Shown here: piece by piece, positions 14,911 through 61,573 of the stretch
Layout: each line of letters begins with the position of its first letter
Numbering within the stretch: the stretch's first letter is position 1
Source: a virus
Length of the DNA stretch: 61,573 nt
IMG/VR virus record: IMGVR_UViG_3300036791_000517
Coordinates: 1 to 61,573 of that record
Strand: one strand, 5' to 3'
Notes under the pieces: model-generated
What the model was told of the DNA's origin: nothing
The model's database searches: none
Seen by the model: the letters and a program-made list of their open reading frames with translations, nothing else
Made by a program: the position numbers and the translations under genes

Positions 14911-15645
14911 TCAGTAACCTTTTCCCCAATACTGGCACGAGGCGACGGCGCAGTGTTTTTTGCAGAGTCCCGATGGTCGCGGCGGGAACTGATTGGTGTC
15001 GAAGGCATGTTGAAAGCCTCCTACGAGATCGTCGATTTGCTCGATAAAGCCGCGCGCCAGTTCCTGCCGGGTGACGGTGAAGTCGGTCGCCACACCGTCG
15101 TAGAGATAGACATATTTGCTCTTGATAGTCTGTAGATCGGGGAAGTGCAGGAAAGCCAGCAGTGCTGTCAGCTTGAGCTGAAAGTTGGTTGGCAACAGGT
15201 CATATTTGGGATCGCGCTCGCTGCCGGTTTTCCAGTCAACACTCAGTCCGAAGGCGCCATCCATCACCAGCAGATCGGCCTGTGCCCGGCACCACACTTT
15301 GCGCTTTTTCGAGAAGTAGGCACACGGCAACAGATTGCGCGTGCAGGCCATGCGATGCTCGACCAGCACGACGCCGCCCGGCTTGATCATGGTGGTCGTC
15401 CAGTCAGCGAAGCGCTCGTATTCCTTGGGCAGTGGTGTGCCGTCGCGGATGTAGTCGGCCATCACCTTATGCACCTTAAACCCCTCACGCATCTTGGGGT
15501 TCTCGGGTTCCTTGATATCCTTCAGCACGTCGTAGTGATGATATTTGCGGGCGCAGTTGGTGAACTTGTCGAGCGCCGAAAAACTCCAGGCCCGCTGTTC
15601 GATGACCGGTCGGCCATGAATGTCAGTGCGGTTGAGCGTGTCCAT
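14911..15645 (-). CDS. RecB/Cas4-like PD-(D/E)XK exonuclease with four-cysteine cluster, 244 aa
   Basis: The nuclease core reads Asp124 (AQADLLVMD), Asp137-x-Lys139 (SVDWKTGS) and Gln156 (NFQLKL), the RecB-family order. Cys31, followed near the C-terminus by Cys228, Cys232 and Cys237, matches the split Cys plus triple-Cys layout that binds a 4Fe-4S cluster in Cas4 and AddB. ATG 15645 has GGGAGA 5 bases upstream; longer starts run into the next gene. It probably resects DNA ends for recombination together with the candidate SSB and the SNF2 helicase. Confidence 0.82.
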   Translation of the reverse strand: MDTLNRTDIHGRPVIEQRAWSFSALDKFTNCARKYHHYDVLKDIKEPENPKMREGFKVHKVMADYIRDGTPLPKEYERFADWTTTMIKPGGVVLVEHRMACTRNLLPCAYFSKKRKVWCRAQADLLVMDGAFGLSVDWKTGSERDPKYDLLPTNFQLKLTALLAFLHFPDLQTIKSKYVYLYDGVATDFTVTRQELARGFIEQIDDLVGGFQHAFDTNQFPPRPSGLCKKHCAVASCQYWGKGY

Positions 15646-15862
15646 TACGATCTCCCATGAAGCGACGAATGCACTGCTTGATGTCGCGCTTCTGGTTTTG
15701 TAGCACGCGTCCCCGCAATCCTGATACCGTGATGATGATCCGGCCGGTCGGCACATGGCGCCACTTGAGATGCGCCTTGCCGGTCCAACCTATCGGTTCG
15801 AGATCGAACTCTGATGCGAGTTTTGCCAACTCACGCTGAGCCTTCAGCGAATGTCGTGCCAT
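15623..15862 (-). CDS. Small basic protein, 79 aa, HicA-like fold possible
   Basis: Pattern: a helix MARHSLKAQRELAKLASEF, a strand-turn-strand AHLKWRHVPTGRIIITVSG, and a basic C-terminal helix VLQNQKRDIKQCIRRFMG. This resembles compact double-stranded-RNA-binding folds of HicA-type proteins, but the assignment is tentative. The gene overlaps the exonuclease start by 23 bases. Its ribosome binding site (GGAGG) lies inside a 13-bp palindrome (15865-15877), and a strong promoter lies about 45-70 bases upstream. Confidence 0.68.
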   Translation of the reverse strand: MARHSLKAQRELAKLASEFDLEPIGWTGKAHLKWRHVPTGRIIITVSGLRGRVLQNQKRDIKQCIRRFMGDRNGHAQPH

Positions 15863-16474: not shown

Positions 16475-18370
16475 TCATTTACAATCGCCATAGCGCTGGC
16501 CCACGCCAACGTCACAGGCTAGCGGCAGGTTGGCCAGCCAGCTGGGTGGCCGGTTCATCTCCAATTCAGCCCAGATTTTCGCCGGTTCTACCTGGCTGAC
16601 AGGCACATGGTAGACCAGCTCGTCGTGCGCCGAATGGACCAGCCGAGCGCCTAAACTTTCCATCGGCACACGCAATCGGACCGCCGCCATCATGACGATA
16701 CAACGCGACAGATGCTGGCAAATCGTCTCCAGCAGAGAAGCGCCATAGGTCTTGCGGGTCTTGCGACCGTCACGGAAGAACCAGCCATTGAGTTCATAGT
16801 TGTAAGTTAGATCGGGGAAATAAATCGGCAACCCGGTCGGGCCGACCATCAGGTTCTTGTAGAACGTCACGCATTTTTTGGTCAACCCCTCGCCCTCGCC
16901 GATTTCCGGCAGGTCGGCCATCATCGACAGGATGCGGTCGAGCTCGCGCCAGGTACCGACAATGCGCTGCATGCGGGCGCGATAGGTGGTGACGGTGTCG
17001 ATCGCTGACTGATCGCTCAACACCACGGGCGTCTCAGTGTTGCGACTGTTCAGCCACACCGTGCGCTGGAATTTAAGCCAACCGCTGGCGTAGCCCAACT
17101 GCAGGATGCCGGTCTTACCGACGAAGCGTTCCGGCTTGTTGTCTTTGGTGATCGGACGACCGAACACCAAACTGGCGAAGGCCGCATAAACATCTTCGCC
17201 GCGCCGGAACTGCTCGACCAATTCCGTCTCGCCGCAGAACTCGGCAGCGACCCGTGCCTCGATCTGCTTGGCGTCAACCACCAGCAGGACGTAGCCGTCG
17301 TCAGCATAGATCGCCTGACGCAACTCCGATTCGCGCCCGAGGTTCTGCACGTTGAGATCCCAACCGCCGCCGAAGCGATGGGTGTGCGCCGCGCCGATGA
17401 TCACCGGCATGGGTAGACGGCAACGACCGTTGGGAAACTCCAGCTCGGCGATCTTGATAAAGCGTCTGCTGCGGGTTTCTTCGATGGTCGATTTGATTTC
17501 GAGCCGCGCCTCGACCACGCTTCGAACGACAAGGTTGGGATGTTCGAGCAGATCGATGAACTCCTGATCGCTCTTGGCGAAGGCGTAGGTCTGCTCCTGG
17601 GTGCGCGGCGAGGTTTTCATCGGCGGCTCGACTGCGAGCCTGCGCAGCACGTCGGCCAGCTTCTGGTTGCTCATCAGATCGCCCTTGGTGACGCCGAGCT
17701 GTTCGACCTGCGCCAGTGCCGCCGCTTTCTCTCTTAACACGGTGTCAAGGTGGCTGTGCAGCAGCACCTCGTCGACCTTGAGCACCGGCTCGGTCGTGCA
17801 GCGCGTGACCATGTCATGCAGCATCAGTTCGTCAGGCGGGACCAGCTGAAGCAGACGACGATAAATCTCGCGGCATAGCCAGGTATCGTGCAGGCAGTAT
17901 TCGACTTCGCGCTGCCACAGGTCACAGGCGATGATGTCGGCACGCGTCATGCCCTTCACTTCCTTGACCAGCGTGCCCTTGGCGGGCAGGCCGAAGTGAG
18001 CGGCGACGTCCTCAAGCCTGTGCGAGGGCAGGAGCGGGCCGAGCATGGTGCGCGACAGGGCGATGGTGTCGACGATGAAATCGGGGATGAAGTCGAAGCG
18101 CCATGCCATCACTGCCATGTCGAACTGAGCGTTGTGGCTGATCATGGCAATCTGCTTGCCCCAGCGTTGCTGGAATTTAAGCGACGCGATGAAGGTGGGG
18201 ATTTCCGGCCCGTCGATCAGCATTGGCGGATCGACAAGGTTAGCCACGCCAAGGCAGATCGCCTCGAAGCGCGGGTCAAGGATATACTCGGCCGGTGAGA
18301 TTTTCTTGAGCGAGTATTCCTGGGTGTAGAACGATTCATAATCGCAGAATAGCGCGATGACTGGGTCCAT
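16475..18370 (-). CDS. Family A DNA polymerase with 3'-5' exonuclease, 631 aa
   Basis: Exonuclease motifs: Asp10-x-Glu12 (FCDYESF), Asn80-x-x-Phe-Asp84 (SHNAQFD) and Tyr158-x-x-x-Asp162. Polymerase motif A is VVDAKQIEAR (Asp366, Glu371), motif B GKTGILQLGYASG (Lys419, Tyr427) and motif C HDE (582-584). All catalytic residues are present, so it should be an active, proofreading replicase. Length is close to T7-type polymerases. ATG 18370 is preferred to the TTG at 18385. It has its own upstream and downstream terminators, so it is separated transcriptionally from its neighbours. A near-match operator palindrome (17734-17748) lies within it. Confidence 0.92.
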   Translation of the reverse strand: MDPVIALFCDYESFYTQEYSLKKISPAEYILDPRFEAICLGVANLVDPPMLIDGPEIPTFIASLKFQQRWGKQIAMISHNAQFDMAVMAWRFDFIPDFIVDTIALSRTMLGPLLPSHRLEDVAAHFGLPAKGTLVKEVKGMTRADIIACDLWQREVEYCLHDTWLCREIYRRLLQLVPPDELMLHDMVTRCTTEPVLKVDEVLLHSHLDTVLREKAAALAQVEQLGVTKGDLMSNQKLADVLRRLAVEPPMKTSPRTQEQTYAFAKSDQEFIDLLEHPNLVVRSVVEARLEIKSTIEETRSRRFIKIAELEFPNGRCRLPMPVIIGAAHTHRFGGGWDLNVQNLGRESELRQAIYADDGYVLLVVDAKQIEARVAAEFCGETELVEQFRRGEDVYAAFASLVFGRPITKDNKPERFVGKTGILQLGYASGWLKFQRTVWLNSRNTETPVVLSDQSAIDTVTTYRARMQRIVGTWRELDRILSMMADLPEIGEGEGLTKKCVTFYKNLMVGPTGLPIYFPDLTYNYELNGWFFRDGRKTRKTYGASLLETICQHLSRCIVMMAAVRLRVPMESLGARLVHSAHDELVYHVPVSQVEPAKIWAELEMNRPPSWLANLPLACDVGVGQRYGDCK

Positions 18371-18383
18371 ATTGCACCTGGAC

Positions 18384-18414
18384 AAAAAAGGGGGCTGCCC
18401 GGTAAGGCAGCCCC
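18384..18414 (-). terminator. Intrinsic terminator upstream of the polymerase gene
   Basis: On the minus strand a perfect 9-bp stem (GGGGCTGCC/GGCAGCCCC) with a 6-base loop is followed by a six-T run. It ends the small-gene transcript from 18604 just before the polymerase start. Confidence 0.85.
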
Positions 18415-46536: not shown

Positions 46537-48612
46537 ATGCCGGTCATCAAGCTCGAACAGTTTGGTGGACAGATCCCGATGCTTGATGCGCGGCTGCTGC
46601 CGCCGCAAAATTCTGTCTATTGCGAGAACGCCTTTCTGCAACCCGGTAGGCTCGAACCGCTGGCCGCCGATATTCCGATCCATACGCTGGCCGATCCGAA
46701 CGCGCGCTACGCTTTTCGGATCCCTATCTCAAGTCCGTCAATCGACAACATGCTCGACAGCTATTGGCTAGAGTTCGATGTCGTCAGCACGTTCGTGGTG
46801 CGCTCGCCAATCACGGATGAAGCCAACGGCGGAAGTTTTTATTTTGCCAATGGGCAGATGACCCCGGGCTACACAACGAAAAATCGTATCGCTAATGGCG
46901 GTCCTATTTCGCCGCCAGTTTTAAGTTCTCTGGTTGGCAGTACGACGGGCGGCATGCTTCCAGCAGCCACTCAATATTTTTATGTCGTTACGGCAGTGAA
47001 CGGAAACGGCGAGACGTTGAAGTCTAATGAGCTGTCGACGACGACTGGTACGGGGGCCACAAACAGTGTCACGGTCAACTGGGCGGCCGTTACTGGTGCG
47101 ATTGGTTATAAGGTCTATCGTGGCACCACTGCGGGTACTGAGAATGTCCATTACAGCCCCGTTGGTACCAGCACGACTTTTATCGATACAGGGGCAGCGT
47201 CGACAGCAGGTGCTCCGCCGGTCAACGAATCGACAAACCCTAACTTGATATTGGGCATTCCCCGGCCCGAAGTGGCCCCGACTGTCGTGCCGACCGACAC
47301 GACAACCGCGCCGACTGAATCGCGAGCTTACGTCTATACATGGGTGTCAGCTGATGGCGAGGAAGGCCAGCCGAGCCCGCCAACGATCGCGTTAGGATCG
47401 GCTTCCGCTGGCATTTGGAATCTTACGATGACGCCGCCGACGGTGACCGATACGGCCAACCGTACTCTGACAACGCTGCGCATCTATCGCACGGAGACCG
47501 GCACGGACGGCACTGTCGCATTTTTCTTTGTCGCCGAGCTGCCAATCACGACGACGACGTTCGCTGACAACATCCCAAGCACCACCGTCGTTAATAGCGG
47601 CATACTGGCCAGCGAGGATTGGGCGGCTCCACCGACCGATCTTGTAGGTCTGGTGTCGATGCCGAACGGCATGGTGGCGGGTTGGCGCAACAACGAGGTG
47701 TGGTTTTGCGAGCCTTACCGGCCGCATGCATGGCCGGTCAAATATATGGTCGGCGTCGAGAGCCCGGTCGTTGGCCTGGGCACGATCGATCAGAACCTGA
47801 TGATCTTGACAGACGGTCAACCCTACGTCGCGACCGGCGTGCATCCTTCGGTGATGGCTCTGCGCAAGGTCCAGCCGCTCGAACCGTGCACTTCTTCCGG
47901 TTCGATTGTCAGCTCGCCCAACGGCGTGCTTTACACCTCGAACAACGGCTTGATCATGATTGGCCCGGCTGGTGGTCAGAATTTAACATTTAACACGATC
48001 CGTAAGGATGAATGGTCACAGTTGTTGAACCTGCGCACCGTTCGCGCGTCGTTTTTCATGAACGGCTACTATGCTTACTCCAGCGCGATCGATGGCGTTT
48101 TTCAGGACGACACTTTCGAGGTAGCGGACGCTTTTCAGGTGCCGGATTACACCGGCACGTTGGTGGGTGCGTATATTGCTGGTGATCCGCATCTCGGTTT
48201 CATGACCCTGACTTGCGACACGCCGACCTACAATGTGTTGACCGATCTGTGGACCGGCGAGACGATGGTCATTCGCAATGGCCAGGTGTTTCACGTCGAT
48301 CGTCGGCAGCACAATCCGCGTCAAAGCTATCGCTGGCAGTCGAAAATTTTCCAGTTGAAATTCAAAGACAATCTGGCGGCAGCGAAGATTTTTTATGATC
48401 TGCCACCGGGACTGCCGATCACCGGCAGTCAGCTGTTCAAACTCTATACCGATGAGAAGCTCAGATACACTCGGGCAATCCCGCCGTCCGGTCAGCAGTT
48501 TCGTCTGCCGTCCGGTTACAAAGCGGACTTTGCCCAGATCGAACTGTCGGGTCAGCTGATGATCTACAATGTGCAGGTCGCAACATCGGCCCGTGAATTG
48601 CGAGAAGTGTGA
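46537..48612 (+). CDS. Tail-tubular-B-like nozzle protein with an Ig/FN3-like insert, 691 aa
   Basis: It begins LEQFGGQIPMLDARLLPPQ, a typical start of podoviral nozzle proteins (N-terminal GG-P-x-x-x-x-LLPP). An inserted fibronectin-like segment (about 130-230: TQYFYVVTAVNGNGETLKSN, then GYKVYRGTTAG) is followed by a beta-propeller-like body with LVGLVSMPNGMVAGWRNNEV and SSPNGVLYTSNNGLIMIGP. It forms the tail tip through which DNA exits. Its TGA overlaps the next ATG. Confidence 0.8.
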   Translation: MPVIKLEQFGGQIPMLDARLLPPQNSVYCENAFLQPGRLEPLAADIPIHTLADPNARYAFRIPISSPSIDNMLDSYWLEFDVVSTFVVRSPITDEANGGSFYFANGQMTPGYTTKNRIANGGPISPPVLSSLVGSTTGGMLPAATQYFYVVTAVNGNGETLKSNELSTTTGTGATNSVTVNWAAVTGAIGYKVYRGTTAGTENVHYSPVGTSTTFIDTGAASTAGAPPVNESTNPNLILGIPRPEVAPTVVPTDTTTAPTESRAYVYTWVSADGEEGQPSPPTIALGSASAGIWNLTMTPPTVTDTANRTLTTLRIYRTETGTDGTVAFFFVAELPITTTTFADNIPSTTVVNSGILASEDWAAPPTDLVGLVSMPNGMVAGWRNNEVWFCEPYRPHAWPVKYMVGVESPVVGLGTIDQNLMILTDGQPYVATGVHPSVMALRKVQPLEPCTSSGSIVSSPNGVLYTSNNGLIMIGPAGGQNLTFNTIRKDEWSQLLNLRTVRASFFMNGYYAYSSAIDGVFQDDTFEVADAFQVPDYTGTLVGAYIAGDPHLGFMTLTCDTPTYNVLTDLWTGETMVIRNGQVFHVDRRQHNPRQSYRWQSKIFQLKFKDNLAAAKIFYDLPPGLPITGSQLFKLYTDEKLRYTRAIPPSGQQFRLPSGYKADFAQIELSGQLMIYNVQVATSARELREV

Positions 48613-48815: not shown

Positions 48816-50306
48816 ATGGCAAACACCGGTCCGCTCGATCTCGATATGTACATCCGGGGTGTGACCAATCAGGCGTATCAGAATTGGGCCGATCAGCAGC
48901 AGCAGATGGACTGGGCGAAGTCGCAGTTTGCGCAGAATGCGGGAACGGCTGGCACGGTGACCGGCCGGGCACTCGATACCAGCAAGGCGATGAGCGACGC
49001 GGCTATGTCGGATCGTGCGCTCTATGAGGGCACCTACGTTCCGGCGATGCAGCAGCAGATGGATTTCGCCCGCGGTTATGCTTCGCCGGAGCGCATCGCG
49101 GCGGCACAGGGGGCGGCGGGCGCGACGTCACAAATATCGTCACAAGCAGCAGCTGATGCGGCAAAGCGAACCTTGGGGAGCTATGATATCGATCCGTCGG
49201 CCGGGCGCTTTGCCGGGCTCGATGCCGGTTTGCAAGCTAAAGCTGCAGCCGATGCTACTGCTCAGGAAACCACGGCAGGTCGCCAGACTGAGCAGCTGGG
49301 GCAGCAGTATCTTGCCAACGCCATCGCGACCGGCGCGGTGCTGCCCGGTCAGGTCGTGAACGAGGCGGGTGCGGGCATGGCGGCAGGCAATCAGGCGGTC
49401 AATACCGGTCTCGCGACAACGGCGTCGGGCGCGGCGACAATGGGCACGCCGATGCAGTGGAACCAATTGGGAATGAGCGCCTACAATCAGTGGCCGGTCG
49501 CCGCCAACATGCAGACGAGCGCTGGCTTGACGGCCAATGAGCAACAGATCCAACGGGAACAGCTGGCGAACCAGAGTTCGAGCGGCATCGGCGCAGCGAT
49601 CGGCGGCATCGGCGGTCTGCTGGGTGGCGTCGGCAAGTTGGCCGGTGGCGTGGGTGGCACGGGTGGCTGGGGAAGTATCTTCGGCGCTGGCACCGGGGGC
49701 GGCAGCGGTGGCGCTGGCGGTGGCATTTCGAACGTGTCGCCGGGCGGCTACACGACGGCCCAAGCCATGGGTCCGGGCATGGCGGGTGGTGCTGGCATAT
49801 ATGGCGAGGAAGGCGGCATGGTTCCGGCGATGGCGGGTGGCGGCTTCCTCGGTGACATCCTTGGTACCGTAGGCGAGGTCGCGGGATCGTTTATCCCCAT
49901 TCCTGTCGTTGGACCGATGATCGGCAAGGCGGCGGGTAACGCTATAGGGGACGCCGTTACTGGTGACAGCAGTCAAATTGGCAGCGACGTTGCAAGTGAC
50001 ATGAGCTTCGGCCTTGCGGCGCGCGGCGGTTCAATTGACAAAGTGTCAAACAGCGTTCCGCCGTCGGCGTCGCCCAGTCGCGGCGCAAAGGTCGACGATG
50101 TACATGCGCTTTTGAACGAAGGCGAGTTCGTCGTGCCCAAGGATGTCGCCAGCTGGTATGGTGAGAAATATCTTCAGGGCTTGATCGAAAAAGCCCACCG
50201 CGAAATGGCGGGTCCAAAAGCTGAACCGGAGCAGGCACCGATGCCGCAGGCGATGGCGATGTCGCCGCCAGCGTTCATGTCGGCCGGTGCGAGGGGGGCA
50301 GCATGA
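48816..50306 (+). CDS. Internal virion protein, Gly/Ala-rich, 496 aa
   Basis: ATG 48816 has AGGAGACGACG upstream. A helical Gln/Ala-rich N-terminal half (QNWADQQQQMDWAKSQFAQN, QQQMDFARGYASPERIAAAQ) leads into a long glycine-rich region (about 255-360) with membrane-like stretches (GIGAAIGGIGGLLGGVGKLA, IPIPVVGPMIGKAAGNAIG). A conserved LLNEGEFVVPKDVASWYGEK element near residue 430 is common in podoviral internal proteins. Two Gly-Gly motifs occur (EEGGMVPAM, LAARGGSID). Likely ejected with DNA. A perfect operator palindrome lies at 50035-50049. Confidence 0.75.
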   Translation: MANTGPLDLDMYIRGVTNQAYQNWADQQQQMDWAKSQFAQNAGTAGTVTGRALDTSKAMSDAAMSDRALYEGTYVPAMQQQMDFARGYASPERIAAAQGAAGATSQISSQAAADAAKRTLGSYDIDPSAGRFAGLDAGLQAKAAADATAQETTAGRQTEQLGQQYLANAIATGAVLPGQVVNEAGAGMAAGNQAVNTGLATTASGAATMGTPMQWNQLGMSAYNQWPVAANMQTSAGLTANEQQIQREQLANQSSSGIGAAIGGIGGLLGGVGKLAGGVGGTGGWGSIFGAGTGGGSGGAGGGISNVSPGGYTTAQAMGPGMAGGAGIYGEEGGMVPAMAGGGFLGDILGTVGEVAGSFIPIPVVGPMIGKAAGNAIGDAVTGDSSQIGSDVASDMSFGLAARGGSIDKVSNSVPPSASPSRGAKVDDVHALLNEGEFVVPKDVASWYGEKYLQGLIEKAHREMAGPKAEPEQAPMPQAMAMSPPAFMSAGARGAA

Positions 50307-53026
50307 CGCTCAGAAACGAGATCTTCGAGGGACTGGGTGCGGCACAAGCCGCTCAGAACCTCGTTAGCAATCCGCACAACGACTACTACGAGGCGTTGGC
50401 TAATCGGGCGCGTCAGCTTAACCAGCAGGATGCTGAAGATCGCGCTCAAATGAAAAAGAACCGAGAGGCGGCGCAAGCGGGCGGCATTCCGCCCAACGTG
50501 CCGACGGTTGCCGTACCGACGGCGGCTTCGACGGCGACACCTGGTGCGCCACCGCCGCCAGCGATCCGTGCGCCGACAACGGCGCCGCCACCGCCGTCGC
50601 CAATAGCCGCTTCATCGATGCCGCCGACAACCGATCAGGGGACCGCCATAGGGGGTATGCAGCACGGTGGTGCTATTCGCGTCGATGCACCGATGATGTA
50701 CCGGCGCGGCGGCGACGTCGTGCAAGGCGATCGTCAACCTGTCCCGCTCGTCAGAAGGCCGTCGGCAAACGACGACGATGAAGATCAACCGCGTGGCGTT
50801 GTCATGCCGTCGCCTCCGGTTGAGTTTTACCAGCGCAACGACCCGACGCGGAATTCGCCTTTCGGCTATACCTCCGATCCGAACTACGGTCAGCGGCCTG
50901 ACATACGGCAACGGTGGGACGACAGCTCGCATCCGGGCGGCGTTGCCTATCGGCGCGGCGGCAACGTTCAGAGGTTTGAACGCGGCGGTTCGTCCGAGCG
51001 GGGGTATGACGGCACGTCGGATGATAATCAGTCGCCGTTGCCCTTGGCACCGGGTCTGCGCACGCCGCCTTATTCACCGCAGGTTGCGCTTCAGACGACG
51101 GTCCCGGGCAATACGACGGATCCGACGGATCCCGGTGGCGAGGTCGATCCGAGCGATCCCGATGTGATCACCAAGCAGATGCTGGATCTTGCGGGCGGGA
51201 CGGCGGCGCAACGGATCAATCGTGTCGTTGGCGAACCTTGGGGCGTGCTCGGTCCGACGTCCGAATGGCGGGCCGAAGGCGATAAATACCGTGCCGAGCA
51301 GCAAGAAAAGGGACGCCAGCAGGATACGCGCGAAGCGCGTGCGCTGGAAACTTCAGCGCCGACTGTTGCACCGACGTCGAAATTCGAACGAGCCGCGTCG
51401 GCGGTCAATCGTTTCGTCAGTCCGGAAGGGTCGCTGGGCGAGTACGAGCGCAACCAGAAAGAGCTGAAGCGTCTACGTGATCTGAACAGCACGAGCATTT
51501 TTGCGCCCAGCGATCCCGCTGAGGAGCGTCAGCGCCAGGAAGCGGCTGATGCGTTGGCGCGTGAGCGAGGGGCACGCAATAAGATCGATGTCAGCGGCGC
51601 CACAAAATCGATCGACGACTATGTCGACTGGCGCAATCGTACGTTGGATGCGGCCGATCGGGCGACGCGGCCGAGTGGACCGACCGGTCAGACGATAGCG
51701 CAAGCGCCGCCGCCGGGCGCAGGGGCAGCGCAGTCGCCGACTATGGCGCCGAAGCCTGATCAAGCCCTAAACCCTGCGCCGCCATGGCTGCAGGACGCTT
51801 CTAGCATCCCGCCCGAAGCCTTGATGCAGCCGCCGCCTGTCGGTGCGGGGGCTGGTACAGCGGCGGGACCGGGAGAACAGCAAGCGGCGCGAGATCAGCA
51901 GCAACCAACGGGACCGGTACGTGTTGCTCCTAATTCGCAGCCGCCGACAACCCAGCCACCGCCGACAACGCAGCCGCCGACAACCCAGCCACCGCCGACA
52001 ACGCAGCCACCGCCGACAACGCAGCCACCGCCGACAACGCAGCCGCCGGCGACAACCCAGCCGCCGCCGACAACCCAGCCGCCACCGCGTGCCGTGCAAA
52101 CGGGCGCGCCGCCCGTGCCAGCGCCGCCGCCCGGCTCGATGAGTGATCCTCGCCGGGCAGCGGCGTACGATCCGACAGTAGATTACAACGACCCGACACG
52201 CCGCCGTACCAACGACGAGCTGGCTCAGGTGTTGGTCGGTGCTGGGACTCAGGCACAGGCGCGGCCCAACGGCCAGCCACCGCCAGTTGGCGATCAGGCC
52301 GTGAGCCGTGTCGTTGGGCAGGCTTACGTCAACCGCTACAGCAATGGCGGTCAGTTCGAGCCGGGTGAGGCGATCCTGCGCGGTATGCTGAGCGATTATA
52401 AAACGCTGCTGTCGCAAGGTCGTGTCGAGCAGGCCAATAAGATGGCCTACGGCCTGGTTCAGTATGCCAACCTCGAAGCGGCCAGCCATGCCCATGTCGC
52501 TGCCGACAAGGTGAAGGCTGGCGATTTCCATGGGGCGTTGCGCGAGATCGCAGCTGCGGCAACTTGGTTGCCCGACGGTATGACGCACAAGGTTGGCCCA
52601 GACGGTCGATCGCTCATCACGAGCGATCCACGGACCGACAAGGTGACGGCGGTCACGCCGGTCGATGGCCGCTGGCTGTTGGCGGCAATCGGTGGCTTCA
52701 CCAACGGCGATCTGTTGTGGCAGACGTTGGGAGCGGCCGCGGCGCAGCTCAAGGGATCGCCCGATCGAGGCGCTGAGGGTCGCGAGCTCAACAATGCGAT
52801 CCGTCGCAACACGCTGCTCCTGCAGGATCAACGGTTGCGGCGCGGCCTCGCTACGGGTCGTGGCGGTGGCTTGCCGCTGAGCGACGCCGAGAGGCGGGCG
52901 CGCGAGATTGTCGCCCGTAGTCAACCGGGAGGCGGAGACAGGTCGACCGCCGACGGATCGACGAGATCCCAAGGCGGCGGTGAAGGCAGCGTCGATGAAC
53001 CGCCTCCACCGCCTGACGAGAGCTAG
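50303..53026 (+). CDS. Proline-rich internal virion protein, 907 aa
   Basis: ATG 50303 overlaps the previous stop (ATGA). A helical start and long disordered Pro/Ala/Thr regions with several Gly-Gly motifs (MYRRGGDVV, YRRGGNVQRFERGG, RYSNGGQF), a charged middle (about 330-430), a PPPTTQ repeat tract (about 546-600) and a folded C-terminal domain (about 670-860: AILRGMLSDYKTLLSQGRVE, QANKMAYGLVQYANLEA). Probably a virion protein stored or ejected with the genome. Function unknown. Confidence 0.75.
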   Translation: MTLRNEIFEGLGAAQAAQNLVSNPHNDYYEALANRARQLNQQDAEDRAQMKKNREAAQAGGIPPNVPTVAVPTAASTATPGAPPPPAIRAPTTAPPPPSPIAASSMPPTTDQGTAIGGMQHGGAIRVDAPMMYRRGGDVVQGDRQPVPLVRRPSANDDDEDQPRGVVMPSPPVEFYQRNDPTRNSPFGYTSDPNYGQRPDIRQRWDDSSHPGGVAYRRGGNVQRFERGGSSERGYDGTSDDNQSPLPLAPGLRTPPYSPQVALQTTVPGNTTDPTDPGGEVDPSDPDVITKQMLDLAGGTAAQRINRVVGEPWGVLGPTSEWRAEGDKYRAEQQEKGRQQDTREARALETSAPTVAPTSKFERAASAVNRFVSPEGSLGEYERNQKELKRLRDLNSTSIFAPSDPAEERQRQEAADALARERGARNKIDVSGATKSIDDYVDWRNRTLDAADRATRPSGPTGQTIAQAPPPGAGAAQSPTMAPKPDQALNPAPPWLQDASSIPPEALMQPPPVGAGAGTAAGPGEQQAARDQQQPTGPVRVAPNSQPPTTQPPPTTQPPTTQPPPTTQPPPTTQPPPTTQPPATTQPPPTTQPPPRAVQTGAPPVPAPPPGSMSDPRRAAAYDPTVDYNDPTRRRTNDELAQVLVGAGTQAQARPNGQPPPVGDQAVSRVVGQAYVNRYSNGGQFEPGEAILRGMLSDYKTLLSQGRVEQANKMAYGLVQYANLEAASHAHVAADKVKAGDFHGALREIAAAATWLPDGMTHKVGPDGRSLITSDPRTDKVTAVTPVDGRWLLAAIGGFTNGDLLWQTLGAAAAQLKGSPDRGAEGRELNNAIRRNTLLLQDQRLRRGLATGRGGGLPLSDAERRAREIVARSQPGGGDRSTADGSTRSQGGGEGSVDEPPPPPDES
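51938..52088 (+). repeat. Coding tandem repeat, Gln-Pro-Pro-(Pro)-Thr-Thr units
   Basis: About nine 15- or 18-base units (core CAGCCACCGCCGACAACG) encode QPP(P)TT repeats. The units vary slightly and mix two lengths, as expected from slippage or recombination. The opposite strand shows long ORFs here that are composition artefacts. Confidence 0.85.
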
Positions 53027-53028: not shown

Positions 53029-54231
53029 ATGGCTGATACGGCGTTCGACCCTGGCGCTCCGCCGATGCTGTACGGCAATCAGCCGCCGCCGCTTGCCGAA
53101 CCGCCACCTGTTGAGCAAGCGCAAGCGCCGCCGTCGCGCGCTATCAATCCTAATTGGTATCCGCCGCTTCCGCGGGAGCCAACCCCGGAGGTTAGCCAGC
53201 CGCCAGCGCAGGGCGATCAGCCAACGCCAACGCATGAACCGCCGCCCTTGCCGACGAAGGAACCGCCCCCGGCCGTTCAGCAGCCAGACTTCGACGAGCA
53301 ACAGGAAGAGCTGGCTCGTAAAGCTCAGGAAGATCAAATGTACAATGGCACCGTGTTGGATACGACGGGTAAGCCGTTGCGCCCGCCAAAGCCAGTGACG
53401 GTCGATGACTATGCGAACAAGCGCGACGACATCAAGGAACTGCAAACGCTCATTCCGACTTTGCCGCCCAAGAGCCAGCCGTACTACATCAAACAAATGC
53501 AGGTGATGCGGCGCGAGCTCAATAATCAGGTCGATCAAGAGAATAAAAAAGCGTTGAAGGATTATCACGCCAAGCTGAGTGCCGACCTGCAGCCGACCAA
53601 GGTTCCGTATCAGAGCCCTAAGGTGCGCGCCGATCAAGCTGCCGTTCTAAAAGGTCCGGGTGACGAACTGCTGGCGCAGTCGCAGCAAGAGCAGGCCGCG
53701 ACAGACCCCAAAGAATCGTTTGACGCGCGCTACAATTTTACAGTGTCGCCTCTGAACACGATGGCAGGTCCGAAGAAAGTCGGGCCGGACGGCAATCCGA
53801 CGGCGGATTATGGACAGCTCTACCAAGCCGCAACCAACATTGCTTTGACGAACCAGCACATCCAGCCGGATCAGGTGATGCGCTACGTCATGATGGCGGG
53901 CTCGCCAGTTGTCACTTTGGACAAGGATAAGCACGTCGTTCCGACCATCAACGGCACTGGCATAAACGGTCGCAAGGGTGCGGCGGGTACCAATTACGAG
54001 GTTATCGGTCGCGATCCGCGTGACTATCACCTGTTGCGATTTGCCGACGGCACGACGTTGAGCGTCGACCCGATCAGCAAGGCGGCGCTCGAACGGGCGC
54101 GCGTTGAAGGCTATAAGGCAGGAAAGAAGTTCTTTGTTGACGAAGCGGCCAAGAAAGCGGAGGCCGAAAAGCCGGGCTTGGTCGAACGCGCCTATCGCAC
54201 CATCTGGCCTGCCATACCGAAGAGTGAATAA
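53029..54231 (+). CDS. Internal virion protein, 400 aa
   Basis: ATG 53029 starts 2 bases after the previous stop. Pro/Gln-rich N-terminal third, a charged helical middle (about 120-190: QPYYIKQMQVMRRELNNQVD) and a C-terminal folded part (about 230-385) with RKGAAGTNYEVIGRDPRDYH and LLRFADGTTLSVDP. Position in the internal-protein series suggests a virion role. Its TAA overlaps the ATG of the giant gene (TAATG). It contains AACCCCGGAGGTT at 53181-53193, in coding sequence. Confidence 0.72.
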   Translation: MADTAFDPGAPPMLYGNQPPPLAEPPPVEQAQAPPSRAINPNWYPPLPREPTPEVSQPPAQGDQPTPTHEPPPLPTKEPPPAVQQPDFDEQQEELARKAQEDQMYNGTVLDTTGKPLRPPKPVTVDDYANKRDDIKELQTLIPTLPPKSQPYYIKQMQVMRRELNNQVDQENKKALKDYHAKLSADLQPTKVPYQSPKVRADQAAVLKGPGDELLAQSQQEQAATDPKESFDARYNFTVSPLNTMAGPKKVGPDGNPTADYGQLYQAATNIALTNQHIQPDQVMRYVMMAGSPVVTLDKDKHVVPTINGTGINGRKGAAGTNYEVIGRDPRDYHLLRFADGTTLSVDPISKAALERARVEGYKAGKKFFVDEAAKKAEAEKPGLVERAYRTIWPAIPKSE

Positions 54232-57200
54232 TGGCAACTATTTTCACTGACCCCTCGTTCCTGACAGGCGTCAGGGACACGACGGCGGAGGATAAGCCGG
54301 ATACCGAACACCGGACATGGGGCGAACTGGGCGGTGACATTTTGTCAAAAGTCGCCGAACCGGCGGTTGGCGCGATACGCGCCGGTACGACGGCGTTGCG
54401 CGGGACGGGTCTGTTTCCGGAGACGACGAAGGCCGCCGACGAAGAGGTTGCTGACTGGCAGAAGGGCCTGAAGGAAGGTCTGTCGCCTCGTCAAAAGGCA
54501 ATCGATACTGCGTCGTATTTTCCAGAGTACGGCCAGCGCAGTGCATGGCCTGACATCGGCTCCAAGCTGTTGAGCGACGCTGCCGGATTTGCCGTTCCGG
54601 TCACAGCGGCGGCTCTTACAGGTGCGGGTGGCGCAGCGTTGGCAACGCGCGCCGGGCTGGGCATCGGCGCTGCGGCGACCACGGGTGCTGCGGCGACTGG
54701 TCTGGAGTTCGGTTTGCAGACTTTGGGCGAGACGCTGGCGCAACAGCGCGACTACGCCATGAAGACGTCGCTTGTTGAACTGCAGGCGTCACCGGTTTTT
54801 CAGAAGGCATGGCGCGAATTCGACGGCGATGAGAAGGCGGCTAGAGAGAAATTCTATCAGGACACCAAGGACGTTACCGGCGCGGTGATTAATGCTGCCG
54901 CCAGCGGTATGAGCTATGCCGCTATCGGTCGGCTGTTTCCTGCCGCCCAGCAGGATGCGGCGAATTTCGTCACCCGCCTGTTGACCGGCCGCACCGGCGG
55001 TGTTCTCAAGCGTGGCCTGCAAGGTGGGGCCGAGACAGGAACGGCCGGTGCGACGATGGCCGCGACCGGCGCCTACACGCAGCAGCAGCAGTTGGTCAAT
55101 GCGGGTCTGCAGCCCAACGTCGATCCGCATGTCATGGCGCAACGCACGGAGGAAGGCGCGCTCAGCATGCTGCCGCTGACGGCTTTGCATTTGCCCGGTC
55201 GAAAGGAAGCAGAACCACCGCCGCCCCCCGGCAAAGAGAAGCCGCCCGAGCCTGACAGCGAACTCAAGACGGTACTGTCCGGTCAGCTGGCGGTAGACAC
55301 CGGGCCGCCGCCCATCCCGGGTGGGCCTGAGGCACCGCACATGCCGCCGGGGCCGCAAGCGCCACAGCCCCGGGGCTATCAGGATTATGTCGATCGCAAC
55401 GCGCCGAAGGCGCCGCGTCGGCCGCCGCCGCGACCGGGCGTTCAGGAGGAATATGGCGATCAACTGCCGCCTCAACCCGAACCGCCTCCGGGTGCACCGC
55501 CGCCAGCTCCCGGTGCTGGACCACCTCCGCCGACACCCCCCGATGTCGGACCGCCGCCTTCTCCTCCAGCAGCTGAGCCATCGCCACTGCCGTCACCGCC
55601 TCCAGATGTAGCTGTGCCTCAACCGCCGCCCGGGCCAGCACCGGGCGTGCGTCGCGCTTGGTTGGAAAGGCAGCTTCAGACCGAAGCCGATCCTCGTCGT
55701 CGCGCTTGGCTGGAAGATCAGCTAAAACGCGAACCTCCTGCAGCTGGTCTTCCCCCAGAATCCCCCACTGCAGGACCGGCGCGCCCGGCTCCTCCGCCTT
55801 CCTTAGAGCCGGGCGTTGCCGGAGCGCCGTTCGAAGGCGGCCCCTATCTGCCGGGTCAGCCCGAGCGACCTTTACCGGGGTACCAACAGTACGCCGATCG
55901 CAACCGGCCTATCCCGCCGCGCTTCCAGCGTCGACTGGGCCGTCCCGGCGTTGAGGAGGAGTACGGTGATCAGCTGCCGCCTCAAGGCGCTGGTGAACCG
56001 TCTGCTGAATATCAAGCAGCGCTGGCACGGCGTGAAACACCCGAGCAGATGAAGGCGCGCGTCGCCGCTGCGGATGAGGCAGAGGCGGCTGCAACGCGGG
56101 CTAGGATAGCTGAGGGGAACGCTCGGACGAGGGCTCGCCTAGAAGCTGGCGACATCGAGAGAGTGAGGCAGGATCACGCTGCTGCTATGGCAAAACTGGC
56201 TGAACCAGCGGTGCGGGAAGTATCGCCAGAAACGCCAGTTACGCCGGGTACCATTCGAGTAACTGAGGCACCCCATGCGCGCACCGAGGCACCTCAAGTA
56301 ACCGAGGGTGCCGGTGGGACATCTGAAGCGGTTTCTCGACAGCAGGCGGAAGGGTTTGCCAGACTGGCCCACGAAAGGGCAGAGAAGGCTCAGGCAGAGC
56401 GCGACGCCGCGGTGGCTACCCTGCAGGAGGCTAGGGCGCCGCAACGCACTGGCAAGCAAAAAACCGGCCTTGAGCGGGCCCTTGAGACGGCCATCAAGGT
56501 CTACAAAGCGGGCGACCCGTCGCTCGAAGGATGGGCAGCGCTGCGTCGGCAGGCGATGAATGTCGAGCATCTCCGCCGCGAGGCCGGGCTCGCTCCCAAG
56601 GGTTATCTCAAACAGATCGGCGAGCGGCCGGGCGGACCTGAGCCAGCGGTATCGGCTGAGCTCGAAGGCAGGTTCGGCCAGCCCCGTGAAGTGCCGACCA
56701 TGCAGGGCGAGCTGTTGACGGCGGCCGAGAAGCAGTTCGTCGACCGGCTTGCCAAATTCCATGAAGAGATGCGGACGCCGTCGGACATAAGGGCGACGGC
56801 GGGACTGGAAGGCATGAGAGGGGTCGGCGCTACAGCAGAACGTAAGCCGCTGTCACGGCGAGACAGAATTCTTCGTAGCCAGTTGTTCCGGCGCGAAGCC
56901 CAGCGGCTCGATGCTGAACGCATTGCCAACGGCAAGGAACCGATATTCGTCAAGGCGCTGCCGCGCGTCGAACCACCGCTGAGGGGAATAGAACCGGTCG
57001 TGGCGAGGTTCAATGATTTGGCTGCTCAACTTCGCCCGCACCGTGCACTTCCGCCTAATGAATTTTTGAAAGTTAAAGCGGTGCGCGATGCACTTGAGGA
57101 GATGAGCAACATCCAATCGAAACAACCGTTGCTTACGCCGGAATGGGTTCGTCAAAAACTTCTAAAGGCTGATGAACGGTCAACTGCAATTGCGAAGTGG

Positions 57201-60200
57201 CGCGACCGATTAGCCGTCGAGAACGAACCATACATGCAGGCACGCGCGGCTGCGGGCAAACGCCTCTACGAGGCCGGTCCGGTGAGTGAGAGCACGGCGG
57301 CTGGGCAGAGGATCGAGCCCGGTACGTTCCAACATGAAGGTGAAACCATATCGCACGCCGAATTTGAACGGCGACAAGCAAACCTGCGGAAACAGCGTGC
57401 CCCCGGTACGCCCACAGCTCGTTTGATGGAGCAGGAAACGACCGCACAGCAGGAGGCGGCGAAGCGCCCGATGGGACAAGAGCGCTCGGTTGCACTGGTT
57501 CAGGAGAAACTAGCGCAGGAAATGGCGGCGGGTGCAGAGCGGCGTGAGTTTCGCGGCGACTTGCCGACGGCAGAGGAAGTCGCCAAAGCAGCCCAGGAAT
57601 TTTGGGCCGGTCAGCAGAGGCGTGCCAAGCAGACGACGCGAACTCAAACCACTCGGGCAAAACAATCGGCAGCGCGTGACGAGGCCATCAAGTTCACCAT
57701 CGACAGCGTGCTGGAGAAATATCTCGGCAAAGGTCTCAACGGCCTGCCTGAATTGCTCGACCCCTTGCAGGGGGTCAGCCATAAACCGGAACGGCCCAAG
57801 GAGCTGGTCACCAAACCAAAAGAGCGTGGCGCTGCGAGCTTCCGCGAACGGGAGGCAGATCGAAAACTAGAGGAAGAATATCGGGCTCGCTACACATTCT
57901 GGCGAGGCCAGTTGTATGAGCAGAGCAAGGCGGCGCGTGAACTGCTGCTGCCTATCATCGACGACATTATTTTTCTGGCAAAACACAACATAGAAAAACA
58001 GAAGGCACTGACAGCGCCGCGTGGCGGTTCGATCGTTTGGGATCTGCCTAGCGCTGAGAGGCTTCCCGATGGACGTCTACGCTACAAGATCGGCAAGACC
58101 GGAGAGGTGGCTGATCACTTCAACATGCTCGCCGACATGATGAACGCGCGTGAGGCCATCAAGCTCAGCATGGAAGCGGTTCCCGATGTTGGAGCGTTCG
58201 AAATCGGTGCGACCAAGACCACCGCTATTCCGGCGGCAACCATCGAACGCTATGGGCGCCGGACCAATAATTGGCTGGCGCGACTAGCCGACGACTGGCG
58301 CAACTATCACGCGGGAGATTTAGAGGCGATCAATGAACGACGTCGGGCGCACCGTGAGCAAGTTGAGGAGGAGAAGAGGGGTGTACAAGCGAAAGCGCCT
58401 GAAGGTGACGAGGAAGAAGGACTAACCAAGGACCTTCCGTCGCAGGAACTGACGCCGGAAGAAGCGCTGATCGAGAAGCAAGCGGCCGCTGGTCTCACTG
58501 AGCCGACAACCGAGGCGGCGCGTCGACAGCAGGCGAGGACGATACGAAAGGACTGGGCTCAGCTCATTGCCGATCGGGAGCGGTCGAAGAAGGGCAAGAA
58601 AATCGCGGGGTTGCGCAAAGCACTGCCACCGGAATTTTTTGCTAACGCACCTGAAAAACCTGCTGACTGGCCGACGGGAGTGCCATGGCCGCCCCGTCGC
58701 GAGTTGAGCGCTGAAGAATTCGCTGCTGCCAAGCAACGCCTCGAAGCATCGCAAGCCCGTGGTCAGCGGCTTACTGAGGCAGAGCTTGAACGTAAATTAG
58801 CGGATATCGAGGTGCACACCGTAGAAACAAGCCGCTTAGTCGGTGGTGAAGATCCTCGCAGTCTCGATCAGAAAATCGAGGATCTGAAGAACAATCGCCG
58901 TAACCGACCGATCGATGGGCCGCCACCTGAGACGGCACAGGAGCATGTCGCCGAAGTCAATGACGCGCGCGACGCGCTGGCGACCGACGACCCCCAGCAT
59001 CCGCTGATCAGCGATCCCGAACCGGCCAGCGCCTCGCTCGACCGGGCCAAGGAACTGATCATTGCAGGCGAGGCGGCCGATGTGTCGCCGTTCATCACCC
59101 CGGCGTTCCTTGACAAATTGTCAAAGGTCAATGACGGCGTGCAAGTCCTGCATGCGCCGGTCGAAGTGGTCGGTCGCGATGGCGAGGGTCAAGCCTTCTA
59201 CCAGCCCAACCACGACCGCATCGTGCTCAGCAACAACGTGTCGAGCGGCGACTACGTCAAGAACGTCGTGCACGAGCACGTCCATGCGGCGACCGAGAAC
59301 CTGCTGCATACCGACCCCGAGTTCAACGCCGAAGTCGAAGACTTGCGCCAGCGTGCCGAGCGTCATGCCGAGCGGGCTGGCGTCACCAACGAGCGCCTGC
59401 TCTACGGCCTGCGCGACCCGCATGAATTCCTGGCGGAGGCGTCGTCCAATCCGGAGTTCCGTGCCCTGCTGCAGCGGGCATCGGCGCCCGGTACGGGCGT
59501 CATTCAAGGCGTCAAGAATGTTTTGAACGGGCTCTATCGCACGGTGCGCGATGCGTGGCGCCGCTTGATGGGCAACGAGAAGGATGCCGACACCGCGCTC
59601 GACGTGTTGTTCCGCGACACCTCGACGGTGCTGGGCCGCACCGACAAGCTTTTAGCCAAGACGATGGATCGGCTGGCGATGGAAGGCAGGCCCGGTGCGA
59701 TCTCCGACGTCGCCGGGCGGCGCTACGGTCCGGTGCGCGATGCTGCCACCAAAGTGCTAACCAAGGCGCGTGACATGGCGGCCGGTAAAGGCAGTTTCGA
59801 TACGAGCATGTCGCTCCATACGACGCGCGATCTTGCCCATCGCGGCTCGCCCGAGTTCAGGAAACTCGTCGAGCCGATCACGCGAGTGATGGCTAAGATT
59901 GCCACCGAGCGGCAACGTCTCATCCGAGAGGAAGATCAACCTTATCTGTACAGCACGGCGAAGTGGTTCCGGGCGCTCAGCCGGGATGCCCAACGGGCCG
60001 TCAAGAAATTCCTCTATGATGAGACGATGCACGGCGCTTACGCCGACAAGTCGCTGACTGATGCCAAAAACAACCACGTCAATCTCAGTGCGCTGAGCGA
60101 TGCCCAGGTTGTCCGGAATCATCCGGAGATGCAGAAGCGCTTTGATGAGCTGGCAAAAATCAAGGGCTTCGTCGAGCATCGTGAGTTGCTGCATGAATTT

Positions 60201-61573
60201 TACGCCAAGCGCGAGAAGGAGATCCGCCACGAGGTAACCAAGGCATTGGTCGAGCATCTCGGTCTGCTGCCCAAGAATGCTGACACGCCAGCGCTGAAAA
60301 ATGCCGCGATGGAGCTGATCCAGAAGCACATCCTGGGTGAACCGCTCAACAACGTTGAGAAGGCGCGGCTCGAAGCGATCAAGAACGAGGCGGGGCGCGC
60401 CAACTATCGTGATCTGATTGGCCGCATCCGGCGCACGCCCGAGCTGAAGATGCTGGCCGGGCCGTACATCCCGCTGACGCGGCACGGCAACTGGGCGATC
60501 CTCGGCAATTTCAAGATGCCCGAAGGCGGCAACAACGGCGAGCGCACGGTCGGTTCGATTGATCGCGTAACCAAGCAACCGATCGACGACGGCGTGCGCA
60601 TGTTCGACACGCGGGAAGCTGCTGCGGATTTCGAGAAGCGCATGTTCGACAAATTCGGTGTCGCTCAGATCGGCGGCGGCGAATGGTTCATCGACCGGCG
60701 CACCGGCAAGCGGGCGCGCGAGTACACCGAAGATCAACTGCATGAACTGCAGGACAAGGACCCCGATCTGCGCAACCGCCTGCTCAAAGCCAAGGAGATC
60801 GAGCCCGGTCTGGTGGCCGAGGGACCGGACGTCTACGAGAAGAAATACTGGGTGAAGATGCAGCCCAAGCTGCTGGAGTTCCACGAGAACCAGAGTGAAG
60901 CCAATGCCAGCGCGGCGGCGTGGCGCGCCAAGCACGGCGACGACATCGACGTCTCCAATGCCGAGCCGGTACAGCGCGGCAGCGGCAAGGAGAATGAGAA
61001 ATACGCCAGCGCGCAGATGCAGAAGCTGATCGATCGTGCCGAGACCATGGACTCGTACCGCGATCTCAACGACGACCAGCAGGCCGCGCTCAAGGCTGGG
61101 CTCACCCTGCAGGCCGCCAAGCTCAGCCTGCGCCGCGGCGTGCGTCAGGGGTTCAAGCCGCGCGAGTATGTGGCCGGTGCCGACCCGGAAGATCTGATGC
61201 GCAACATGGAGGCGTATTCCGGGCAGACATCGGGCTATCTCGCCAACACGAAGTTCTACGTCGAGAAAAACAAGACGCGTGCCGATCTCGACAAGTACAT
61301 GCACGACACTCGCTACCAGCAAAATCAGATCAGCACGGTGCACGCCCGGGCACGCAACGAACTCTATCAAAGGATGGACGAGCCGACCGAAAGCAACGTC
61401 GACACGCCGTGGGATCGGGCGACCAACATTCTGCTCAAGGGATCGATGCTGAGCCGCTTGGCCGGTGCGTCGTATTTCATCACTAACGCGACCGAGCCAG
61501 GGGTGCTGGGTGCGCCCAATATGATGGATCATCACAACCCGGTTCGCGTCTATGGCGAAATGGCAAACACCTA
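54231..61573 (+). CDS. Giant internal virion / polyvalent protein, 2,948 aa in full (continues at 1-1631)
   Basis: I followed this frame from ATG 54231 to the window end and found no stop. Layout: membrane-active-looking N-terminal region (about 110-165); two Pro-rich stretches (about 330-470 and 500-590); an internal duplicate (382-415 and 550-585); long charged coiled-coil regions (about 600-1500); a zinc-metallopeptidase motif HEHVH at 1681-1685, with a DPHEFLAEA segment about 45 residues later offering a third ligand; then a large helical region with an LPD38-like end. HExxH domains occur in phage polyvalent proteins that are delivered with DNA. It probably enters the cell and may cleave a host or virion protein. 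No transglycosylase or vRNAP motif was seen. Confidence 0.86.
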   Translation, partial: MATIFTDPSFLTGVRDTTAEDKPDTEHRTWGELGGDILSKVAEPAVGAIRAGTTALRGTGLFPETTKAADEEVADWQKGLKEGLSPRQKAIDTASYFPEYGQRSAWPDIGSKLLSDAAGFAVPVTAAALTGAGGAALATRAGLGIGAAATTGAAATGLEFGLQTLGETLAQQRDYAMKTSLVELQASPVFQKAWREFDGDEKAAREKFYQDTKDVTGAVINAAASGMSYAAIGRLFPAAQQDAANFVTRLLTGRTGGVLKRGLQGGAETGTAGATMAATGAYTQQQQLVNAGLQPNVDPHVMAQRTEEGALSMLPLTALHLPGRKEAEPPPPPGKEKPPEPDSELKTVLSGQLAVDTGPPPIPGGPEAPHMPPGPQAPQPRGYQDYVDRNAPKAPRRPPPRPGVQEEYGDQLPPQPEPPPGAPPPAPGAGPPPPTPPDVGPPPSPPAAEPSPLPSPPPDVAVPQPPPGPAPGVRRAWLERQLQTEADPRRRAWLEDQLKREPPAAGLPPESPTAGPARPAPPPSLEPGVAGAPFEGGPYLPGQPERPLPGYQQYADRNRPIPPRFQRRLGRPGVEEEYGDQLPPQGAGEPSAEYQAALARRETPEQMKARVAAADEAEAAATRARIAEGNARTRARLEAGDIERVRQDHAAAMAKLAEPAVREVSPETPVTPGTIRVTEAPHARTEAPQVTEGAGGTSEAVSRQQAEGFARLAHERAEKAQAERDAAVATLQEARAPQRTGKQKTGLERALETAIKVYKAGDPSLEGWAALRRQAMNVEHLRREAGLAPKGYLKQIGERPGGPEPAVSAELEGRFGQPREVPTMQGELLTAAEKQFVDRLAKFHEEMRTPSDIRATAGLEGMRGVGATAERKPLSRRDRILRSQLFRREAQRLDAERIANGKEPIFVKALPRVEPPLRGIEPVVARFNDLAAQLRPHRALPPNEFLKVKAVRDALEEMSNIQSKQPLLTPEWVRQKLLKADERSTAIAKWRDRLAVENEPYMQARAAAGKRLYEAGPVSESTAAGQRIEPGTFQHEGETISHAEFERRQANLRKQRAPGTPTARLMEQETTAQQEAAKRPMGQERSVALVQEKLAQEMAAGAERREFRGDLPTAEEVAKAAQEFWAGQQRRAKQTTRTQTTRAKQSAARDEAIKFTIDSVLEKYLGKGLNGLPELLDPLQGVSHKPERPKELVTKPKERGAASFREREADRKLEEEYRARYTFWRGQLYEQSKAARELLLPIIDDIIFLAKHNIEKQKALTAPRGGSIVWDLPSAERLPDGRLRYKIGKTGEVADHFNMLADMMNAREAIKLSMEAVPDVGAFEIGATKTTAIPAATIERYGRRTNNWLARLADDWRNYHAGDLEAINERRRAHREQVEEEKRGVQAKAPEGDEEEGLTKDLPSQELTPEEALIEKQAAAGLTEPTTEAARRQQARTIRKDWAQLIADRERSKKGKKIAGLRKALPPEFFANAPEKPADWPTGVPWPPRRELSAEEFAAAKQRLEASQARGQRLTEAELERKLADIEVHTVETSRLVGGEDPRSLDQKIEDLKNNRRNRPIDGPPPETAQEHVAEVNDARDALATDDPQHPLISDPEPASASLDRAKELIIAGEAADVSPFITPAFLDKLSKVNDGVQVLHAPVEVVGRDGEGQAFYQPNHDRIVLSNNVSSGDYVKNVVHEHVHAATENLLHTDPEFNAEVEDLRQRAERHAERAGVTNERLLYGLRDPHEFLAEASSNPEFRALLQRASAPGTGVIQGVKNVLNGLYRTVRDAWRRLMGNEKDADTALDVLFRDTSTVLGRTDKLLAKTMDRLAMEGRPGAISDVAGRRYGPVRDAATKVLTKARDMAAGKGSFDTSMSLHTTRDLAHRGSPEFRKLVEPITRVMAKIATERQRLIREEDQPYLYSTAKWFRALSRDAQRAVKKFLYDETMHGAYADKSLTDAKNNHVNLSALSDAQVVRNHPEMQKRFDELAKIKGFVEHRELLHEFYAKREKEIRHEVTKALVEHLGLLPKNADTPALKNAAMELIQKHILGEPLNNVEKARLEAIKNEAGRANYRDLIGRIRRTPELKMLAGPYIPLTRHGNWAILGNFKMPEGGNNGERTVGSIDRVTKQPIDDGVRMFDTREAAADFEKRMFDKFGVAQIGGGEWFIDRRTGKRAREYTEDQLHELQDKDPDLRNRLLKAKEIEPGLVAEGPDVYEKKYWVKMQPKLLEFHENQSEANASAAAWRAKHGDDIDVSNAEPVQRGSGKENEKYASAQMQKLIDRAETMDSYRDLNDDQQAALKAGLTLQAAKLSLRRGVRQGFKPREYVAGADPEDLMRNMEAYSGQTSGYLANTKFYVEKNKTRADLDKYMHDTRYQQNQISTVHARARNELYQRMDEPTESNVDTPWDRATNILLKGSMLSRLAGASYFITNATEPGVLGAPNMMDHHNPVRVYGEMANT
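61447..61573. repeat. Terminal overlap, right copy
   Basis: Identical to bases 1-127. Removing it leaves a unit of 61,446 bases. Confidence 0.93.

Follow-up and report, generated by a model that had tools for sequence, protein, structure and literature searches.

The viral DNA analysed here, IMG/VR virus record IMGVR_UViG_3300036791_000517 (positions 1 to 61,573), is referred to below, at its full length of 61,573 nucleotides, as ‘the window’. Our subject is a giant gene that runs across the ends of this contig and encodes a protein of 2,948 residues, in which a predicted zincin-like metallopeptidase domain stands between a long, variable front and a C-terminal part of the tail-700/PLxRFG type. 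The gene and the features within it are as follows, in coordinates of the window.

54231 to 61573, + strand: giant gene, 5' part, running off the contig end, residues 1-2447 of 2948
1 to 1631, + strand: giant gene, 3' part, residues 2407-2948, read in frame from base 3 to the stop codon at 1629-1631
61447 to 61573, no strand: terminal overlap of 127 bp, identical to 1-127
55203 to 56030, + strand: proline-rich low-complexity stretch, residues ~325-600, from the composition table
59100 to 59447, + strand: zincin-like metallopeptidase core, residues ~1624-1739, from AlphaFold, alignments and fold comparison
59271 to 59285, + strand: HEHVH, residues 1681-1685, predicted to supply two His ligands and the general-base Glu
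59424 to 59426, + strand: E1732, predicted third zinc ligand (Y1725 is at 59403-59405)
384 to 1556, + strand: tail-700/PLxRFG domain (NF032893), residues ~2534-2924, model positions 300-671 of 681

The first 127 bases of the window are the same as the last 127, base 1 corresponding to base 61447, and we infer that this overlap is the mark of a circular assembly rather than a biological repeat. Such an assembly is what a circularly permuted genome would be expected to give; the 61-kb genome of the Bcep22-like podovirus JC1 is described as being of this kind, with terminal redundancy as well (PMC9144972). Joined through the overlap, 54231-61571 and 3-1631 form one open reading frame (ORF) of 2,406 + 542 = 2,948 residues without an internal stop, where ~94 stops are predicted from base composition. 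The start of the gene is supported by the single base that its ATG, at 54231, shares with the stop codon of the gene upstream (TAATG). A relative in IMG/VR, L009, has a single unbroken ORF (2,876 aa, counted from the first ATG) with which both window pieces are collinear, with a 41-residue overlap where expected, and this provides independent support for the junction. Rhizobium phage RHph_TM29 encodes a complete homologue (EVB31_083; 2,328 aa, 23-25% identical). Exact peptide patterns from the window pieces confirmed no close relative, and one from the C-terminus of the L009 protein found only L009 itself. The split of the giant protein in the file comes only from the place, inside its gene, at which the circular genome was opened. 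The first-pass annotation of this DNA had already proposed that the gene leaves the right end and resumes at the left, that it encodes 2,948 residues, and that ORF calls report only a false 539-aa piece of it, and in each of these respects it was correct; the false piece is the ORF at 12-1631. Pseudomonas phage Itty13 (MW460249; L089:42-1934) has a 630-aa piece that matches the C-terminus of the giant protein and starts 42 bases in from the record end; its giant gene, too, may have been cut by the ends of a linear record. The point at which a circular contig is opened is arbitrary; giant genes of this type are halved there, and may therefore be undercounted.

HEHVH, which the first-pass annotation placed correctly at residues 1681-1685, is the sole HExxH of the protein. 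With the composition of this protein, chance would yield 0.078 such motifs, and by itself the motif is weak evidence. Searches by tblastn with the domain region and two homologues, without a motif requirement, gave lists of 16, 264 and 15 records (60 of the 264 were seen) and reached RHph_TM29, internal core proteins of KP34-like phages, N4-like phages, a Helicobacter prophage and crAss-like phages. Fifteen ‘motif-blind’ proteins were fetched from these lists (four also seeded alignment A1). In every one of them the matched region includes HExxH, and a Glu aligned with E1732 is present in each of the 16 domain copies that they contain, although matches of low identity lie mostly around the motif helix, so that degenerate copies are perhaps under-sampled. 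A second collection, of the best 80 loci, was gathered by the pattern HE..H; removal of near-duplicates left 61, and 46 of these are complete at both ends. Alignments A2 (60 of the 61 loci, plus the window) and A4 (45 of the 46) leave out L063, and A5 (44 of the 46) leaves out two loci with <300 residues in front. Conservation of HExxH, and of A and T, is there by construction. Of the 61 members of A2, the downstream Glu is present in 60 and Y1725 in 58, and neither residue was part of the search pattern. Because the 80 loci were picked by HE..H, only Y1725, E1732 and the 15 motif-blind proteins count as evidence. One uncultured phage, cr10_1, has an unannotated 1,206-aa frame (L007; record positions 91846-99985) with two zincin copies, their HExxH motifs at 568 and 809.

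Comparison with L009 singles out the same region. Residues 1571-1841 are the best-conserved part of the protein (77% identity), with 0.16 nonsynonymous substitutions per site (dN); a separate comparison over the domain gives 79%. Identity is 59% over residues 1842-2100, 68% over 2101-2447, and 54-56% over the C-terminal piece, and falls to 37-42% over residues 1-1500, where dN is 0.6-0.8; the corresponding synonymous rate (dS) is near or at saturation. Residues 1-1500 differ also in third-position G+C, 0.60-0.65 against 0.74-0.81 for the remainder. AlphaFold, given 61 sequences, predicts an N-terminal helix, three strands, the HExxH helix and the Glu helix, the elements of a zincin core, with a mean predicted local distance difference test (pLDDT) score of 83.3. 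When candidates from Foldseek were re-aligned, the ejection protein of phage PhiM1 ranked first (8vb2; Z 8.0 over 157 residues, root-mean-square deviation 4.2), followed by residues 2126-2362 of gp50, the virion RNA polymerase (vRNAP) of N4 (9pnr, Z 7.5; 9pnt, Z 6.0). Lethal-factor metallopeptidases rank behind these, with Z up to 5.4. The A2 profile, in turn, matches solved ejection proteins (23sg, E=1.7e-39; 9sfn, 8.8e-27; 8vb2, 1.5e-18), and HExxH is aligned in all three. With its region the best conserved, its third ligand kept and a zincin core predicted around it, the HExxH is more than a chance occurrence.

Several results weigh against a peptidase and the role that we propose for it below. 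The Pfam model MPTase-PolyVal (PF18818) scores 13.4 bits over the motif, below its cut-off of 27.5 (E=0.083); this is one model only, and the MPTase family is described as having 12 clades (PMC5512222). The PHROG of N4 vRNAP matches the window domain weakly (E=0.038), and N4 vRNAP has no sequence match to the A2 profile. Foldseek alone finds no significant match in the PDB (best E 0.15), and the tool itself describes the re-alignment Z scores as middling. Ligand conservation, finally, would fall short of proving peptidase activity. The earlier suggestion of a metallopeptidase is nevertheless supported: E1732 and the AlphaFold core point to a zincin-like domain, although MPTase-PolyVal stays below threshold.

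The name of this domain in its relatives invites a different explanation. In the PhiM1 paper the homologous domain, residues 268-528, is called endolysin/exotransglycosidase-like (PMC11440229), and databases speak of ‘endolysin’ as well (phrog_342). The domain might accordingly breach the cell wall, as an endolysin- or transglycosylase-like, or other peptidoglycan-cutting, part of the ejectosome; peptidoglycan cross-links are a conceivable target of a zinc peptidase, and the slice At2 gives one weak PHROG match, to a ‘lysozyme domain-containing protein’ (E=0.083). We consider this very improbable, in view of the complete HExxH...E zincin site found in sequence and predicted fold (16 of 16 motif-blind copies), the lack of any lysozyme or transglycosylase Pfam match to the domain region, and the separate lysozyme-like domain that PhiM1 has in another ejection protein (PMC11440229). 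The complete HExxH...E site is present in ejection proteins of the KP34-like and related types (L004:4873-8592, L103:2978-6676, L096, L098 and L101), whose annotation reads internal core protein or ‘internal virion protein with endolysin domain’. The one that was scanned, from AltoGao (L004), has no lysozyme Pfam family, and its alignment to phrog_342 covers the model only from position 179 on. The PhiM1 text covered by a term search contains neither HExxH nor ‘metallo-’ nor ‘protease’ (PMC11440229), and among the open-access papers listed by searches on the subject, judged by titles and the beginnings of abstracts, none links KP34/PhiM1-type ejection proteins to zincin peptidases. Judged from sequence, ‘endolysin-like’ in these proteins appears to be a correctable point, the domain having a full zinc-peptidase site by prediction, and the purpose of the catalytic domain in solved ejectosomes would thereby become directly testable.

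Behind the peptidase lies a C-terminus that the first-pass annotation took to be LPD38-like, and here it was mistaken. Neither LPD38 (PF18857) nor LPD39 (PF18858) has a match in the window at E <= 10, and comparison by hhalign with eight true LPD38 regions from relatives gives probabilities of 0.1-0.4%. The C-terminus is instead of the tail-700/PLxRFG type: the NCBIfam model NF032893 matches it, in part, at E=1.4e-41 (142.8 bits; curated cut-off 100), and a degenerate PLxRFG motif, PVLRLA, occurs at residue 203 of the C-terminal piece. Its AlphaFold model is almost entirely helical (pLDDT 83.6). It matches the C-termini of PHROGs that include phrog_10089, ‘DarB-like antirestriction’; tblastn with it finds 28 phage records, and like C-termini occur in giant proteins of PEp14, PBC5, Atu_ph08, Itty13 and others. 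The C-terminal 542 residues give 26 matches at E <= 0.001 in a viral library, several of them named large polyvalent proteins. Compared with the PDB, their best match is a transporter (Z 6.0), which we take as chance, and N4 vRNAP and PhiM1 are absent among the matches listed. Homology of the post-peptidase part to the C-terminal part of N4 vRNAP was rejected (hhalign probability 0.8%); for KP34-type proteins the probability is 30.6%, and for reversed-sequence controls 0.1-0.2%. Varied C-terminal parts stand behind one peptidase domain: among 45 peptidase-bearing relatives, tail-700 occurs in 28, LPD39 in 18 and LPD38 in eight. Giant proteins of two Vibrio phages (L092:6090-15170 and L093:3867-15158) have this C-terminal type, and their motif is HExxxH instead of HExxH; the same change of spacing in other polyvalent peptidases is mentioned by Iyer et al. 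(PMC5512222).

The position of the domain within these proteins is regular. In 43 of the 46 complete, non-redundant relatives, 850-1360 aa separate HExxH from the C-terminus (median 1125, coefficient of variation (CV) 0.24; the outliers are L036, L050 and L063), and in the window protein 1,268 aa do so. The length in front of HExxH, by comparison, ranges from 32 to 2236 aa (CV 0.47; Levene p ~1e-5). These counts refer to the longest frame holding the motif, begun at the first ATG, GTG or TTG. The near-fixed distance behind the motif and the variable length before it place the peptidase at a boundary between cargo and carrier. Pfam recognizes ART-PolyVal in three of 44 front regions, Macro in one and GNAT families in at least one; in RHph_TM29, an InPase domain precedes the peptidase (E=6.3e-48), so that this homologue combines InPase with MPTase. 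In the window protein, MPTase is the sole enzymatic domain recognized: Pfam, PHROG and NCBIfam scans name no second enzyme in its front ~1,570 residues, Pfam recognizes no cargo domain in the front of L009, and a simple hydropathy window detects no transmembrane segments. ART-PolyVal also lies behind the peptidase, in three of 45 relatives, and cargo is therefore not N-terminal alone, contrary to the simplest form of this division.

The regularity of position bears on whether the peptidase acts in trans, as an effector that after injection cuts host proteins of defence, restriction or envelope. For MPTase domains Iyer et al. propose either processing of the polyvalent protein itself or an attack on proteins of the host (PMC5512222), and the latter would suit both the weak match of the domain to phrog_7245, an anti-restriction PHROG (E=2e-4), and the lethal-factor proteins among its fold neighbours. 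It accounts poorly for the near-fixed place of the domain between front and C-terminal part. The domain is also found in ejection proteins of unrelated phages with very different hosts, which a general role in ejection fits better, and action in trans seems to us unlikely.

The giant gene follows virion genes in its operon. Upstream, on the same strand, are genes for a head-tail adaptor (phrog_332), the major head protein (phrog_267) and tail fibres, and then those listed here.

46537 to 48612, + strand: internal virion protein (phrog_511, E=1.8e-104), 34.8% identical to its RHph_TM29 homologue
48816 to 50306, + strand: virion structural protein (phrog_8003, E=6.4e-43)
50303 to 53026, + strand: 907-aa gene, without a family match, in the same operon
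53029 to 54231, + strand: 400-aa gene, the upstream neighbour, its stop overlapping the giant-gene start

From their positions, the 907-aa product is possibly a second ejection protein, and the 400-aa product possibly an ejection protein also. The giant DarB-like protein of JC1, whose gene closes the virion module, is reported in purified virions (51 unique peptides; PMC9144972). Elsewhere in the window, on the - strand, lie replication-type genes, for a family A DNA polymerase (16475-18385), a PD-(D/E)XK nuclease (14911-15756) and a DUF927 protein (7262-10258), and a free-standing SNF2-type helicase gene (11989-13548); in the related phage Atu_ph08 it is the giant protein itself that is annotated as an Snf2 helicase.

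The reading that we favour, to which we give about even credence, is that this is a large polyvalent ejection protein of a ~61-kb podovirus, whose peptidase frees N-terminal cargo at or after ejection. The protein would be packed in the head and pass into the cell together with the DNA or before it. A conserved carrier would be formed by the last ~1,300 residues (metallopeptidase, then a long stretch that ends in the helical tail-700/PLxRFG domain), and a variable cargo by the ~1,570 residues in front, including the proline-rich linker. H1681, H1685 and E1732 are the predicted zinc ligands of the metallopeptidase, and E1682 its base; the most likely job of the domain would be to cut the protein, at a presumed site that frees the cargo from the carrier. 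The analysis itself shows the unbroken gene, its domain, the conserved ligands, the predicted fold and a setting among virion genes, whereas packaging, injection, zinc, catalysis and the place of cleavage are inferred. The boundary position of the domain favours release at or after ejection. Cleavage before packaging is unlikely, because N4 vRNAP is packaged unprocessed (PMC5512222) and the PhiM1 domain is modelled in place in the mature virion (PMC11440229). The same two observations would suit a domain with a structural part in the packed ejection complex, its zinc site giving stability rather than catalysis: the domain is folded in the PhiM1 model, and N4 vRNAP stays uncut although its encapsidation requires this region (PMC5512222). 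A structural zinc site would have no need of a general-base Glu, and all 16 motif-blind copies retain one (A2, having been collected with the HE..H motif, is excluded from this argument), so that we regard a purely structural role as improbable. The earlier proposal of a polyvalent protein injected with the DNA is supported in part: a protein of virion or ejection type with a zincin-like domain, in a podovirus whose relatives have similar giants, fits the evidence, and LPD38 does not. We suggest more tentatively, and with some doubt, that one conserved zinc-peptidase domain, placed at a near-fixed ~860-1,350 residues from the C-terminus in N4-like vRNAPs, KP34/PhiM1-type proteins, some crAss-like proteins and the giants of 60-kb podoviruses, marks a general protease step in DNA ejection by many short-tailed phages. 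If so, the carrier part would deliver, and the peptidase release, whatever cargo evolution had placed in front.

Among known systems, N4 vRNAP (gp50) shares a similarly folded HExxH domain, C1 (9pnr, 9pnt), whose motif is noted in the N4 preprint (PMC12633501), followed by a large C-terminal part. The window protein differs in having no RNA polymerase (no Pfam or PHROG polymerase match, T7-like included, in the 2,447-aa piece), and the two C-terminal parts are not detectably related. PhiM1 gp48, a tetrameric protein of a Pectobacterium phage (8vb2), shares the profile, the fold, HExxH and the third Glu, but it and the KP34-type core proteins are less than half as long, their domain is called endolysin-like, and the C-terminal relation stands at the 30.6% given above. 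RHph_TM29 EVB31_083 has MPTase followed by tail-700, and similar operon neighbours; it differs in its InPase and in sequence. The DarB-like giants of the Bcep22/PEp14 type (phrog_10089) share the C-terminus and a gene that ends the virion module, the JC1 copy being virion-borne, but are annotated as methylase, helicase or transglycosylase. Of five that were scanned, those of Atu_ph08 and PBC5 have neither HExxH nor HExxxH, two Vibrio phage proteins have HExxxH only, and that of Mwe-JY07 has one HExxH, which may or may not be related. With the polyvalent proteins of Iyer et al. (2017), as these are set out in PMC5512222, the window protein has in common that it is giant and virion-linked, that it carries HExxH with a downstream Glu, and that its other domains vary; it differs in being without LPD38, in its sub-threshold match to MPTase-PolyVal, and in having no recognized second enzyme. 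It is a new member of this known class.

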